From Hadesarchaea archaeon (GTDB lineage Archaea > Hadarchaeota > Hadarchaeia > Hadarchaeales > Hadarchaeaceae), in assembly GCA_030672285.1 (NCBI GenBank), contig DAOVGS010000044.1, forward strand, positions 1-34,839: DNA of 34,839 bases, in the 5' to 3' direction. Below the pieces are notes generated by a model. The model had not been told where the DNA came from. It saw only the letters and a program-made list of their open reading frames with translations, and ran no database searches. Both the position numbers and the translations under genes were made by a program. The stretch's first letter is position 1. Each line of letters opens with the position of its first letter. Shown in pieces: positions 2,194-28,408 of the stretch.

Positions 2194-3543
2194 TCACTTC
2201 CGCTTTATCGCCCCGAGCTTCTGCCAGAGCTTCTCCGCTGACTTCCGCGCCACCTTCACCGCCTCCGCCTCGTCAAGCGTCTGCATTTTTCGCTCGCGCA
2301 TCACGACCTTACCCCCGACGATGACTGTTTCGACATCATCGCCATCCACGGTGTTAACGACGTGCCCGACGACGCTTTCGGGACGCACGGGTGTAGGCGC
2401 GAGGGCTGGATTTATGATGATGATATCCGCGAGCTTCCCGGACTCAATCGAACCTAGCTCGTTCCCCAACCCGTAGAGTTCTGCTCCACGGATCGTTGCC
2501 ATCTCGAGCGCCTCCATGGGTGAGATCGCGCGGGGATCGCGGAGGGCGACCTTGTGCAACAGGAAGGCGGCACGCAGGTTCTCGAACCCATCGAAGATAT
2601 AACCATCATTGCCCAATCCCACGGGAATATCCATCAAAAGCATTTTTGCCACTGGCGCGACCCCAACCGCGTTGAGCATGTTACTCATTGGGTTGTGGGC
2701 AACCTTTGCTCCAGTCTTTTTGAGGATTGCCAACTCATCATCGTTGACGTGTACGCAATGAGCGAGCACGACATCCTGCGCGAGCAGCCTTTCATCATTC
2801 AGCCGCTCGATGGTGCGCTTGCCAAACCGCTCTAAACTGTGATAAAGGTCCGCCAGCCCCTCGGAGGCGTGGATGGTCACGGGCACTTTGTAGCGACTCG
2901 CGAGCTCTCGGACATAGTGGAAAAGCTCGTCCGAGACCGTGAAAGAAGCGTGGATGCTGAACATCCCCTGCACCCGGCGCATGCGCTCCTTCTTGACCTT
3001 CCGGATGAATCGCTCGTTCTCTTTGGTGCCCTTGGCCCCCTCGGCGTGGGTGCGACGCTCGGTCGCCTCAAACGCTATAATGCCCCGCATCCCTGATTGC
3101 TCGACCGCGGCAGCGATTCGATCCAGCACGCCGGTTATGGCGTTCGGACCCGAGAAAGTGTCGGCAAACATGGTTGTGCCCGTCTTGATGAACTCGAGGC
3201 AGGAAATCAGGGCACTCGCATACGCGTCCTCGCGGGTCATCACCTCGTCCATCGGCCACCAGACGCGCTGCAGAATCTGCGAGAAATCTGTTGGGGGCTC
3301 AATTTTCAAAGGGGCGCCGCGCAGGAGCATGCCGTAGAGATGGGTGTGTGAGCAAATCAGACCGGGCATGACGATTTTACCGCGGGCGTCGATGACCTCC
3401 TCCGGCTTGCTCTTGGTTTTCGCCTTGCCGCGTTTAACCGAGACGATGCGGCCATCCTCGACAGCGATAGAGCCATCAGCAATTATTCGACGATCTTTAT
3501 CCATCGTGACGACCAAACCATTCTTAATTAATAGGTCAACCAT
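2194..3543 (-). CDS. SsnA/TrzA-family amidohydrolase (second copy)
   Basis: A complete 449-residue amidohydrolase with all metal motifs: HTHLYG, the H-x-x-E deaminase signature (HASEG), LAHCVHV, HNPMSNMLNAVG and GLGNDG. The N-terminal beta-sandwich starts MVDLLIKNGLVVTMD and the C-terminus returns to it (SGKLADIIII). It shares the SsnA-type blocks HASFTV and NPxSNMxNAVG with the truncated gene at the left edge, so the two are paralogues. ATG start with an upstream TATA box at 3574-3582. First gene of a two-gene operon with the PreA-like gene. Members deaminate purines, S-adenosylhomocysteine/methylthioadenosine or ring compounds; I cannot choose between these from sequence. Confidence 0.85.
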   Translation of the reverse strand: MVDLLIKNGLVVTMDKDRRIIADGSIAVEDGRIVSVKRGKAKTKSKPEEVIDARGKIVMPGLICSHTHLYGMLLRGAPLKIEPPTDFSQILQRVWWPMDEVMTREDAYASALISCLEFIKTGTTMFADTFSGPNAITGVLDRIAAAVEQSGMRGIIAFEATERRTHAEGAKGTKENERFIRKVKKERMRRVQGMFSIHASFTVSDELFHYVRELASRYKVPVTIHASEGLADLYHSLERFGKRTIERLNDERLLAQDVVLAHCVHVNDDELAILKKTGAKVAHNPMSNMLNAVGVAPVAKMLLMDIPVGLGNDGYIFDGFENLRAAFLLHKVALRDPRAISPMEALEMATIRGAELYGLGNELGSIESGKLADIIIINPALAPTPVRPESVVGHVVNTVDGDDVETVIVGGKVVMRERKMQTLDEAEAVKVARKSAEKLWQKLGAIKRK

Positions 3544-3573
3544 TCAATCCCTAACAACAAAAACGTCAGCATA

Positions 3574-3582
3574 CATTTAAGC
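3574..3582 (-). promoter_or_regulatory. TATA box of the amidohydrolase-preA operon
   Basis: Reading on the minus strand, GCTTAAATG lies about 35 bp before the ATG at 3543, giving a predicted transcript start some 9 nt upstream of the codon. The histone gene is divergent from the same 100-bp spacer. Confidence 0.5.
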
Positions 3583-3643
3583 TTTCGGTGCCCTAGCAAA
3601 CGCAAATAAACCCCCTAAATCACTTGGGTATGGTGAGGAGAAT

Positions 3644-3856
3644 ATGCCGGAATTTTCAGTGTCCACGATGGATCGACTCATTCGAAAAGCAGCCAAAGTC
3701 CGTGTGTCGCGCGGCGCCGCCCTCGAGCTCAGCGCAATCATCGAAGAATACGCGATCGAGCTCTCAAAGGAAGCGATAAAGCTAACTGAACATCGCGGCG
3801 CGAAAACCGTGAACGAAAGCGATATCCGTGCAGCTGCCCCAAGGATACGCACATGA
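3644..3856 (+). CDS. Archaeal histone
   Basis: A 70-residue single histone fold with no tails, the usual length for HMfA/HMfB-type proteins. Seen: N-terminal FSVSTMDRLIRKA, the helix-2 segment SRGAALELSAIIEEYAIELSKEA, and the C-terminal TVNESDIRAAAPRI (K/R-T-V-x-x-x-D-I). It dimerises and wraps DNA as chromatin. ATG start with a strong ribosome binding site, GGTGAGGAG at 3632-3640. It is followed after 24 bp by the cyclic amidohydrolase gene on the same strand, an unusual partner that probably reflects position only. Confidence 0.95.
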   Translation: MPEFSVSTMDRLIRKAAKVRVSRGAALELSAIIEEYAIELSKEAIKLTEHRGAKTVNESDIRAAAPRIRT

Positions 3857-25404: not shown

Positions 25405-25434
25405 TTCCGGCCACGCCCGGCAATCCCTACGGGT

Positions 25435-25469
25435 GGACGAGCTGATCATCGCGCCCATGACGAATATTC
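25435..25469. repeat. Left flank repeats A and B
   Basis: Repeat A, GGACGAGCTGATCATC at 25435-25450, is identical to 28393-28408. Repeat B, GACGAATATTCAACGTC at 25459-25475, matches 28366-28382 at 15 of 17 positions. Both copies are in direct orientation and flank the beta-helix gene. Confidence 0.75.
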
Positions 25470-25506
25470 AACGTCACACATCAATGCACCCAACGTAAGA
25501 GATTTA

Positions 25507-25520
25507 AAAAAATAAAAAAA
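25507..25520 (-). terminator. T-tract terminator after the beta-helix gene
   Basis: On the minus strand a run TTTTTTTATTTTTTT follows the hairpin-bearing 37-nt repeat C (25527-25563), the expected place to end transcription from the beta-helix gene. Confidence 0.5.
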
Positions 25521-25526
25521 TGGGCA

Positions 25527-25563
25527 GGGTATAACACGCTGCTTTTCCGGTGTTAGAGTGGTA
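25527..25563 (-). repeat. 37-nt repeat C, left copy
   Basis: Identical to 28305-28341 at 33 of 37 positions without gaps. On the minus strand it reads TACCACTCTAACACCGG...GTGTTATACCC, with TAACAC/GTGTTA able to pair around a short loop, and is followed by a T-tract. All four differences lie in or next to the loop. Confidence 0.75.
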
Positions 25564-25610
25564 CCCTCCAGAACCTTTCCGGAAAATTTCAGACTGCTTC
25601 AGAATGCCCA

Positions 25611-25630
25611 TGGTGCGGGGGAGGGGATTT
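25611..25630 (-). repeat. Fragment resembling a tRNA-Leu 3' end (left)
   Basis: On the minus strand AAATCCCCTCCCCCGCACCA ends in a CCCCCGC acceptor strand, discriminator A and CCA, as in archaeal tRNA-Leu. The part before it (GCTTAA) no longer matches a T-loop, and no 5' half exists. A likely remnant of an attachment site or a dead tRNA gene. Confidence 0.5.
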
Positions 25631-25677
25631 TAAGCACCAATTTACCGGTAAAAATGAGACAGACATGCCACCAAAAT

Positions 25678-26913
25678 TTATCTCTTTCTAAGCATAAAGA
25701 CCAAGCCAATTGCAGCTGCGATCGCCACCACGCCCGCAACCACATACACAATGGGTATCCCCTCGGCTGGCGGCACTCCTTCTCCAGGCACCCTCGCGTA
25801 AAGTATCGCATACTCGCTCAGGCTCGTTATTTCTACGAAGACCTTGTTTGCCCCAGTGTCAACAGTTCCTCCTAGATTCTCCCAACTGCTGTCCATTTTC
25901 CTCCAAATCGCTAGATCCTCTTCCCTCCAGCCCGTTTGTAGATCAGCCTCGTCGTAGGGCAAAGTGATGATTGCCGGCAGGGCGAATGTCGTCCCAATTG
26001 GCCTAAGCTCGTAGGCTGAACCAACGATTGAATAGCCCGATGGCGGTGAAGGCGATACCGTCTCAACTGTAAATATAATGCTTTCCGAAAGTGCATTCGT
26101 GGGGACATCTAATCTCGCATTGTTGATTGTAATAGACCCGCCTGATGGCCCGATATTTGCGGCGGGCATTTCTGTAAATTCCTGCCAACCGCCGGGTATA
26201 ATAGTATTGTTTCTTATCACAACATTCTCGACATACCCAGAGGTATAGAGGGCACCATCGATAGTGTCACGAATGATGTTGTTTTCTACCAGTACATTGC
26301 TCGACGCAATGTAAATGCCCTTAATGTTACCATAGAGCTCGTTACCTACAATCTGAGCATAGGAAACCCCACCAAAGGAGCCCCCATATAGATTTATCCC
26401 ATAGAGGGAATCGGTAATTACGCAATTTTCAATAATTAAGACCCTTCCTGATTCAAAATTAAACCCTTGTCCAAAACCATATCCGGATCCGTGCAAGTCG
26501 CTATCCCGTATAATAACGGTTGAATTAGGGGCGGTATGAGTAAGAATACTCCAGTTCCACCTGGCCGCAGAAATTGTTGTCCTCTCAATCGTCAAGGTAG
26601 ATTCACCGCTCATCCAGATACTCGTATCAAAAAATTTGCTGTCTCGGATGGTAAGGAAACCGCCATCCAAGACCCTTATTATTCCAAACCAAGTTCCCCC
26701 CTCGATGACTTCTTGACCAGTAACTGTAAGGTCTATGAATTCCCCTGGCGGTAGTCCAGGTTCTACGGGGGGGGCATTTCGGGCACGGTCACTGACGACA
26801 CCGTTATCGGGCTCGAAAGAGGGTAACGATCCTCCCCTGCTGGTGGAACAGAAAAAGTTGTATCCCCTCCTTGATAAAGGCTCCAATAGTTGCCCTCCTC
26901 GTTCCAATCCCAC
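25678..26913 (-). CDS. C-terminal part of a split beta-helix surface protein (ZU5-like domain, membrane anchor)
   Basis: This 411-codon frame holds the second half of the protein begun at 28049. Its first 50 or so codons (MGLERGGQ...NAPPV) are an out-of-frame reading of the upstream part; real coding sense starts at about 26766 with VEPGLPPGEFIDLTV. Then come right-handed beta-helix rungs (LTIRDSKFFDTS, VLIIENCVITDSLYGINLYGG, NVLVENNIIRDTIDGALYTSG), a ZU5-like domain (GGSITINNARLDVPTNAL, ITLPYDEADL, LAIWRKMDSSWENLGG, VEITSLSEYAILYAR), and a C-terminal helix GIPIVYVVAGVVAIAAAIGLVFMLRKR that anchors it in the membrane. It has no start signal of its own, so it is made only if the frame is restored at the C-tract. 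The DNA is A+T-rich. Confidence 0.75.
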   Translation of the reverse strand: MGLERGGQLLEPLSRRGYNFFCSTSRGGSLPSFEPDNGVVSDRARNAPPVEPGLPPGEFIDLTVTGQEVIEGGTWFGIIRVLDGGFLTIRDSKFFDTSIWMSGESTLTIERTTISAARWNWSILTHTAPNSTVIIRDSDLHGSGYGFGQGFNFESGRVLIIENCVITDSLYGINLYGGSFGGVSYAQIVGNELYGNIKGIYIASSNVLVENNIIRDTIDGALYTSGYVENVVIRNNTIIPGGWQEFTEMPAANIGPSGGSITINNARLDVPTNALSESIIFTVETVSPSPPSGYSIVGSAYELRPIGTTFALPAIITLPYDEADLQTGWREEDLAIWRKMDSSWENLGGTVDTGANKVFVEITSLSEYAILYARVPGEGVPPAEGIPIVYVVAGVVAIAAAIGLVFMLRKR

Positions 26914-28049
26914 TGATTCTGACCCGTGTCATCGTAGGGGGATCCGATGAAGTTGTTGCCCCATATCTTATTTCCCGCTGAATCGTGAGCGATAATACTC
27001 CTTTCCCCTTCGATGTGATTGTTATTGATTTCGTTGTTGTCGGAGTGGTGAAAAAGAAAAACGCCATGCACACCAGCTAAAACACTATTTCCGTTAAGGA
27101 TATTGTTGCGGGAACCTGCGAGCAAGATTGCTTTGCCGTTCGGCGTTGTTATCTCGTTGTTAAGCAGACTGATATTATCAGCATGGTCGAGAAGCATGGC
27201 AATCGCGTACGGGTTTTCGCCTGCTGTAATTCGGTTATTTGCCACGATGTAGTTATAGGACCAAGTTAGTCCTATCCCTATCCACGCCCTGCTGATGTCA
27301 ATATCGTTTCCTACGATACGATTGCCTACGCTACTACTAAAACCCCAAATGACCACTTCCTGACTGTTATCCATGGTATTGTTCAAGATGGTGTTGTATG
27401 AGCCATCGATAGCAAGAGTAGTGTCAGTAGAGATGACATTACCCACAAGCTGATTGTGAGAAGAACCGATCCAGATGCCAATCACGTGCGACCACAAAGG
27501 TAATGTCGTCTCTTCCAGGAATACATTATAAGCAATAACATTATAGTCAGCCCCGGACCCTACATGCATGATTCTAGAATCCACATCCGTGGCGTAACAA
27601 AATAAGTTATTTTCAATGCGGTTGTAAGAGCTGAAGATTTCTATTATGGGCATCTCCCGCTCAGTGAAATAGCCGCTGTTTTGTATCGTGAGGTTGCTGA
27701 TGGTTACATTGTTTGCATTCACTCGGACTACAGTGGCTGATCTGTCGGTGTCAATTACGGTTGTATCCCTGTTTTCCCCAATAAGTGATATGGCTTTATC
27801 TACAACTAGCTGTTCATAGTACGTTCCTGAAGATACGAAGATGGTGTCCCTCGGATTTGCTGCGTTAATGGCTTCTTGTATTGTTGGGTAGTCTGTGGGA
27901 ACTCTAATGGTCGTTGGACTTGCTACTAGGGCAACTGATGGCAAACTTGAAGCCTGTTCTTTATGAACTTTGATCAGGAAGAAAGCGCCGATTCCCGCGA
28001 CGACAATGCATGCCGCCACTATTCCGACTATCGGGATTTTCACGTTCAT
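26763..28049 (-). CDS. N-terminal part of a split NosD-type beta-helix surface protein
   Basis: The frame starts at ATG 28049 with MNVKIPIVGIVAACIVVAGIGAFFLIKV, an N-terminal membrane anchor or signal peptide, then TIRVPTDYPTIQEAINAANPRDTIFVSSGTYYEQLVV, the hallmark start of NosD/periplasmic copper-binding and pectate-lyase-like beta-helix proteins. Rungs follow (NNVTISNLTIQNSG, YNRIENNLF, YNTILNNTM, NRIVGNDI, NNILNGNSV, NNEINNNHIEG), closing with NKIWGNNFI...NQWDWNEEGNYWSLY. It ends prematurely in VTVPEMPPP at a stop right after a run of eight C (26774-26767). With nine or six C it would run on into the frame at 25678, giving a protein of about 790 residues anchored at both ends. Extracellular, probably polysaccharide-binding or adhesive. 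Confidence 0.8.
   Translation of the reverse strand: MNVKIPIVGIVAACIVVAGIGAFFLIKVHKEQASSLPSVALVASPTTIRVPTDYPTIQEAINAANPRDTIFVSSGTYYEQLVVDKAISLIGENRDTTVIDTDRSATVVRVNANNVTISNLTIQNSGYFTEREMPIIEIFSSYNRIENNLFCYATDVDSRIMHVGSGADYNVIAYNVFLEETTLPLWSHVIGIWIGSSHNQLVGNVISTDTTLAIDGSYNTILNNTMDNSQEVVIWGFSSSVGNRIVGNDIDISRAWIGIGLTWSYNYIVANNRITAGENPYAIAMLLDHADNISLLNNEITTPNGKAILLAGSRNNILNGNSVLAGVHGVFLFHHSDNNEINNNHIEGERSIIAHDSAGNKIWGNNFIGSPYDDTGQNQWDWNEEGNYWSLYQGGDTTFSVPPAGEDRYPLSSPITVSSVTVPEMPPP
26767..26774 (-). other. C8 homopolymer at the frame break
   Basis: Eight consecutive C on the coding strand, directly before the stop of the N-terminal frame. With 3n C's, ATG-(CCC)n-GTA-GAA-CCT keeps both halves in frame. 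A candidate slipped-strand switch, or a sequencing or assembly miscount. Confidence 0.8.
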
Positions 28050-28145
28050 TTCAATCAATTCTGCTTAGAGTGGCGTCATAAAAAAGGTTGGGTCGTTTAT
28101 TCACCTCAAAGAAAATAGTTCATCGAAAACTATAACCGCAAGGAG

Positions 28146-28190
28146 CTATGCTGACGAGGGAACTATCGCGATAGCATTCGTCTTAGCATT
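28146..28190. repeat. Imperfect inverted repeat with perfect 12-bp core
   Basis: CTATCGCGATAG at 28163-28174 is a perfect palindrome. On either side ATGCTGACGA and TTCGTCTTAGCAT can pair with a bulge, extending it to about 45 bp. It lies 90 bp upstream of the beta-helix gene, beyond its promoter, and could be an operator or a recombination site. Confidence 0.45.
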
Positions 28191-28227
28191 CGGCTTTTTA
28201 CTAAATGCGCCAGCCATTTTTAACCTG

Positions 28228-28256
28228 TGGTGCGGGGGGGTTTGAACCCCCGAACC
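28228..28256 (-). repeat. Fragment resembling a tRNA-Leu 3' end (right)
   Basis: On the minus strand GGTTC-GGGGG-TTCAAAC-CCCCCC-GCACCA shows a T-arm with consensus loop TTCAAA and a GC-A-CCA end, but the T stem and acceptor strands are merged by loss of several bases. Upstream, TTTTAAGACCAAG and a hairpin ACCAAGA/TCTTGGT recall a tRNA-Leu(UAA) anticodon and variable region, but no D arm or 5' acceptor can be found. I read it as a dead tRNA or attachment-site remnant. Confidence 0.5.
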
Positions 28257-28289
28257 AAGACATCAATAAGCTTGTACTTCTTGGTCTTA

Positions 28290-28298
28290 AAACAAAAA
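28290..28298 (-). terminator. T-tract terminator after ubiA
   Basis: On the minus strand CTATTTTTTGTTTT follows the right copy of repeat C, about 110 nt past the ubiA stop. This is the same arrangement as at the end of the beta-helix gene. Confidence 0.45.
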
Positions 28299-28304
28299 AT
28301 AGTG

Positions 28305-28341
28305 GGGTATAACACGACGCTTTTTCGATGTTAGAGTGGTA
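28305..28341 (-). repeat. 37-nt repeat C, right copy
   Basis: Direct, ungapped copy of 25527-25563 with four differences. On the minus strand TAACAT...TGTTA can form a short stem and a T-tract follows. Confidence 0.75.
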
Positions 28342-28365
28342 TTCGACACATCCCTTTCTCGCAGC

Positions 28366-28408
28366 GACGAATATTCGACATCCCGTTACTTCGGACGAGC
28401 TGATCATC
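28366..28408. repeat. Right flank repeats B and A
   Basis: Repeat B GACGAATATTCGACATC (28366-28382) and repeat A GGACGAGCTGATCATC (28393-28408). Repeat A overlaps the ubiA stop codon by two bases. The order is B-A here and A-B on the left side, so single motifs are in direct orientation while their order is mirrored. Confidence 0.75.

Follow-up and report, generated by a model that had tools for sequence, protein, structure and literature searches.

Integron attC sites have the core consensus RYYYAAC/GTTRRRY, and their paired R and L boxes form a hairpin of about 57–141 nt with extrahelical bases. Integrons have been reported in archaea, Hadarchaeota included (PMC9668308). Genomic islands and integrative elements that target tRNA genes and have tyrosine integrases are collected in the Islander database (PMC4383910). 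Acinetobacter has small gene modules, called pdif/dif, with short Xer-type sites at their borders, each made up of two arms and a spacer (PMC6449649, PMC12907356), and for some casposons the target may be the 3′ end of a tRNA-Leu gene (PMC10359463, PMC6977970). Here we describe insertions in a Hadesarchaea MAG (G000, the source genome) that look like an undescribed single-gene mobile cassette frame, partly built from the end of a leucine-tRNA gene.

The window, that is, the whole stretch of 34,839 nt that was analysed, contains two 37-nt sequences, at 25527–25563 and 28305–28341, both on the minus strand. Direct comparison bore out what the sequence-only reading had reported of them: they are 33/37 identical, differ at four positions, lie on the same strand and are each followed by a T-tract. 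When extended, the pair was also the best direct repeat that a repeat finder gave for the window (68 nt, 74%). On its sense (minus) strand the repeat, designated C, reads TACCACTCTAACA-NNNN-AAAAGC-NNCG-TGTTATACC, followed by a short C-rich link and the T-tract, and chance matches to this pattern in shuffled sequences amounted to 0.00. The arms TAACA and TGTTA, earlier described as invariant, are so within the window; across the family they are not, since relatives carry CGTTA or GCATT-type arms. The dyad of C spans about 30 nt with 7–8 pairs at most and breaks in several copies, and the T-runs start about 10 nt past it, not right at the stem. The proposal of a structured 3′-UTR was not supported: there is one weak 8-pair stem, the covariation check on it yielded 0–1 compensatory pairs, the same as in shuffles, and C had no match in Rfam. 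A 9-mer, CCACTCTAA, does recur ahead of the beta-helix gene as had been noticed (28065–28073). About 0.08 chance matches to it are expected in the window, no extended C similarity surrounds it, and we rejected it as a further piece of C and regard it as a probable chance match.

Genome-wide scans for C were carried out by pattern and profile searches. The source genome contains four strong copies, two in the window and two on contig C55, and not just the two that a single duplication would have left. Of the 28 Hadarchaeota genomes in the profile search, 6 had C, with 13 copies in total; 12 copies belong to this genus, and the remaining one to a second genus of the same family. Weak degenerate relatives of C occupy one orthologous divergent intergenic site in G004–G006. 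All genomes compared were MAGs, and certain C copies lie at contig ends. At E 1e-4 C was not found in 22 of the 28 assemblies, which are incomplete; because of this absence from most relatives, a chromosomal dif or host Xer site was rejected as an identity for C. Three scans of viral contigs revealed no C, so that no free circle or virus form of the C element is known. Another repeat, Q (ATTAGG...GGCAATACCACTTATTTCTTTT), directly precedes C in G014 and on contig C1 of G001; it was rejected as a longer form of C and is a separate boundary repeat. Q (ATTAGGTTAGGAATAGGCAATACCACTTATTTCTTTT, L158–L166) has variable sequence behind it and often stands upstream of an HD-domain gene.

The C copies of G000 are paired and bracket insertions between neighbouring genes, one of about 3.0 kb between ubiA and a Ni-insertion gene in the window, and the other of about 2.0 kb between eS1 and phosphomannomutase (PMM) on contig C55. 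The distance from ubiA to the Ni-insertion gene is 64–180 bp in G001, G007, G008, and G003, only a few nucleotides separate eS1 from PMM in relatives, and neither C nor the intervening gene of G000 was found at these two sites in the relatives. A third insertion was observed in G003, where C, L3 (a linker segment, see below) and a tRNA-Leu end lie behind a conserved 3′ flank, with about 38 nt of other new sequence before C; in four relatives (G000, G001, G007, and G008) the same flank leads directly into the next gene. The three sites (ubiA, eS1, and that of G003) are independent. The sequence-only reading had also offered C as the end of a small mobile element, and this suggestion gained from the comparison: everything from C to C is missing at the orthologous loci of relatives, and elsewhere a different gene is flanked by the same modules. 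The C copies are best read as junctions, not as terminators. About 95 nt are identical between both left modules of G000, and such shared runs, which short-read assembly usually spans, could in principle mislead it. The same joins occur in separate assemblies (G001, G003, and G008), which makes misassembly unlikely. In the interval from ubiA to the Ni-insertion gene (between 25404 and 28407 in the window; L131, L134), relatives have as many as four repeats of a palindromic TGTCGAATATTCGTC-type motif, and the left C junction falls within one copy of it.

All features of the insertion lie on the minus strand, within an intergenic stretch (25405–28406). The left junction repeat, C copy 2 (TACCACTCTAACATCGAAAAAGCGTCGTGTTATACC, 28306–28341), stands between host sequence and L3, and is followed by the C-rich link with its T-tract (CCACTATTTTTTGTTTTAAG, 28286–28305) and by the L3 linker (AAGACCAAGAAGTACAAGCTTATTGATGTCTTGG, 28255–28288), which is also present on contig C55 and in G001, G008, and G003. 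A copy of the tRNA-Leu 3′ end (GGTTCGGGGGTTCAAACCCCCCCGCACCA, 28228–28256) closes the left module. The segment R4 (28203–28224) is also found downstream of the true tRNA-Leu gene on contig C10. The cargo is a gene for a NosD/beta-helix secreted protein (25678–28058); it is read in two overlapping frames, 25678–26913 and 26763–28058, through either a frameshift or an assembly error. At the cargo side of the right module lies the end motif E (TTTTTACCGGTAAATTGGTGCTTA, 25631–25654), behind which a tRNA-Leu 3′ end comes in nearly all copies of the genus; here it is the second such copy (AAATCCCCTCCCCCGCACCA, 25611–25630). The R1 segment (25564–25610), also found downstream of the true tRNA-Leu on contig C10 and on contig C14 of G001, is followed by the right junction repeat, C copy 1 (TACCACTCTAACACCGGAAAAGCAGCGTGTTATACC, 25528–25563), which stands between R1 and host sequence, and by the right copy of the C-rich link and T-tract (25505–25527).

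The two insertions of G000 share this frame and differ in cargo. Their left modules, with C, T-tract, L3, and tRNA-Leu 3′ end in that order, show 2 differences in 116 aligned columns from ATACC to CACCA, and stop exactly at the tRNA-Leu CCA. The right modules (about 150 bp) match through E, tRNA-Leu 3′ end, R1, C, and T-tract, with one length difference, in R1. Nothing comparable matched outside or between the left and right modules, and the host flanks of the two insertions are unrelated to each other. The cargo is likewise unrelated, being the NosD/beta-helix protein in the window versus an NHL-like repeat protein (Pfam DUF6923) on contig C55, and the inserts of 2–3 kb contain only the cargo gene.

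In G000 the true tRNA-Leu(CAG) gene is located on contig C10, and R1 and R4 recur downstream of it. There the tRNA gene stands immediately before R1 (the empty state), whereas the filled locus of G001 has, immediately before R1, the last part of a radical-SAM gene together with E and a tRNA-Leu end. Compared with G002, G003 has an extra YgiQ-type radical-SAM insert at this locus, whose borders re-create the CCCCCGCAC end. An insert with an intact tRNA gene on one side and a displaced tRNA 3′ end on the other was seen at the tRNA-Leu locus, in G002 and G003; no intact tRNA gene was found at the window insert or on contig C55. Among 15 copies of E, 14 lie directly before a tRNA-Leu-like 3′ end (≤2 mismatches; one in another genus). 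These locus comparisons, together with the pairing of E with the tRNA-Leu end, mark the tRNA-Leu 3′ end as a cargo insertion site, which the frame takes elsewhere. As a separate observation, tRNA-Leu(CAG) is a hotspot with stacked radical-SAM inserts that re-create the CCCCCGCAC end (L063, 4056–8892; L198, 6770–9510).

The flanks of C combine freely. We found R1 with L3 (G001), R1 with host sequence (right copies of G000), host sequence with L3 (left copies of G000, G008, and G003), host sequence on both sides (contig C210 of G002), and Q with host sequence (G014 and contig C1 of G001). In the R1-C-L3 copy of G001 (G001a), the left flank matched right copies only, with scores of 25–39, and the right flank matched left copies only, with scores of 23–45, the 99% level of shuffled sequences being 11–12. 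Set against the left and right copies, R1-C-L3 reads as the pattern of attP versus attL and attR. G014 and G001c fall outside this two-class flank pattern. Within the strong copies of C, AAAAGC is invariant between two variable halves. The left variable bases track the flank (ACCGG with R1, p 0.018), and the right ones show a tendency that was not significant (GTCG with L3, p 0.12); 12 copies enter this correlation, and common descent links some of them. From these 12 copies, flank switching would be the expected trace of conservative site-specific recombination in AAAAGC.

Our preferred reading, to which we assign a probability of about 0.6, is that of an integrative cassette frame, non-autonomous and with a single gene, whose ends are recombination sites formed by C and which makes use of the tRNA-Leu 3′ end as well. 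Four things can be read from the sequences themselves: DNA was inserted, the modules are shared, the cargo differs, and the flanks switch at C. C would be a short recombination-site repeat, with a core of about 36 bp and a T-tract, that serves as direct-repeat ends in one Hadesarchaea genus. The frame would run C, T-tract, L3, tRNA-Leu 3′ end, one cargo gene, E, tRNA-Leu 3′ end, R1, C, and T-tract. Cargo would be swapped at the tRNA-Leu 3′-end sites, as comparison demonstrates for the tRNA-Leu locus and as we infer for the frame. Entry into a new intergenic site would leave a C on either side of the frame; the entering form would most likely be a circle, represented by R1-C-L3, which a tyrosine recombinase would recombine by crossover in the invariant AAAAGC between two half-sites. 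Such a frame would offer an uncultured archaeal lineage a concrete, sequence-defined way to gain and swap genes for surface proteins and metabolism.

Candidates for the enzyme were sought near C. Of the 9 contigs that carry C, 3 have a PF00589 integrase no more than 6 kb away from it, where 0.3 were expected (rough p 0.004). Two of the three integrases overlap tRNA sequence and may therefore belong to elements with a tRNA target of their own. Against the archaeal XerA/integron model the three tyrosine recombinases scored 28–50 bits, none reaching the cut-off of 220, in incomplete genomes and with one of the three partial; all three appear only remotely similar to XerA/integron integrases. No PF00589 match was obtained in the G000 assembly (82% complete). 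An integrase gene of G006 (323 aa), about 0.55 kb after tRNA-Leu, immediately behind a tRNA-Leu 3′ end and with an E-like left end, ATTTTACCAGTAAG (L195, 1400–2995), is a candidate autonomous helper for the cassettes.

The frame resembles tRNA islands in the displaced tRNA 3′ end at the ends of its insert and in the integrase genes that the genus has beside tRNA-Leu. Unlike them, it lies at non-tRNA loci, encloses its one cargo gene between a pair of tRNA-Leu 3′ ends, lacks an integrase, and has at its borders a second repeat, C, which is not a tRNA sequence. Like integron cassettes, it has one gene as cargo, at whose end lies a short conserved site resembling a recombination site; it differs in having its cargo bounded by tRNA-Leu 3′ ends. 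The C half-sites CTCTAAC and GTTATAC each match the attC core consensus at 6/7 positions; unlike attC, C has about 30 nt between its outer boxes and no L boxes. C does not have the hairpin of an integron attC site, its dyad of about 30 nt having at most 7–8 pairs that are not kept in all copies. Casposons have terminal inverted repeats and Cas1/PolB, whereas the cargo of the frame is one gene, and comparison of the insert ends by eye revealed no terminal inverted repeats between E and the left ends. The dif modules, with their short two-arm sites and spacer, are nearest to the frame in size and logic. They are without tRNA-Leu sites, which the frame has inside its C repeats.

A more elaborate, tentative version takes the system as an integron-like two-site platform, in which single genes are swapped at tRNA-Leu 3′-end copies inside small carrier frames, and the frames move between intergenic sites via C by tyrosine recombinases acting in trans. 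If it is true, archaeal gene-cassette exchange extends beyond integrons, and the 3′ end of a tRNA, once displaced from its gene, can act as a portable cargo site.

Since relatives lack C at the ubiA and eS1 sites, no pre-existing C-type attB is in evidence, and a transposition mechanism that brings C along at both ends is an alternative. C would then be the terminal direct repeat of a transposase-moved unit, for example of the single-strand HUH type with hairpin ends in the same orientation, which needs no C-type target; R1-C-L3 would have arisen by homologous recombination between ends. C-free target sites in relatives, the shared orientation of both C copies, the folding of the best copy with one bulged base, and the TA with which C always begins all fit this scheme. 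Nevertheless we consider it unlikely, as several C copies are unable to form the hairpin, the invariant block is the loop AAAAGC and not the stem, and Y1 transposases (PF01797) are absent from G000 and from all C contigs, the two of G001 being on contigs without C. An IS200/IS605 or REP-type element was specifically rejected, with no linked Y1 transposase and no conserved C hairpin.

Still less probable is that C is a repeat of the host, REP-like or terminator-like and dispersed, whose recombination follows simply from its being repeated, the insertions being due to homologous recombination. Lone copies without the frame (G002:C210 and G014:C31) and the degenerate copies at the orthologous site in G004–G006 would suit it; however, there are at most four C copies per genome and none in most genomes, and C occurs mainly where accessory DNA has inserted. 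Least credible of all is the proposed terminator or FttA signal, a 3′-end processing or termination element of the ubiA and beta-helix gene mRNAs: every C copy has a T-tract behind it, and six have a gene or RNA-like gene of the same strand on their 5′ side, yet covariation is lacking, a terminator scan gave no intrinsic-terminator call at either window site, some copies stand ahead of genes or between divergent ones (G001:C16 and the degenerate copies), similarity continues through L3, tRNA-Leu, and R1, and the insertions and long shared modules are left without account. With the cassette frame as the preferred reading, the T-tracts may terminate archaeal transcription in a way incidental to the insertions.

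Another conserved element was observed in the genus, a GC-rich, noncoding-looking stretch of about 240 nt (L062, about 3440–3690; G000 contig C64, 1185–1681; G000 contig C10, 22026–22276). It had no match in Rfam even at E 5. Each genome of the genus carries 1–2 copies, with complementary ends, and the stretch is a possible undescribed structured RNA.
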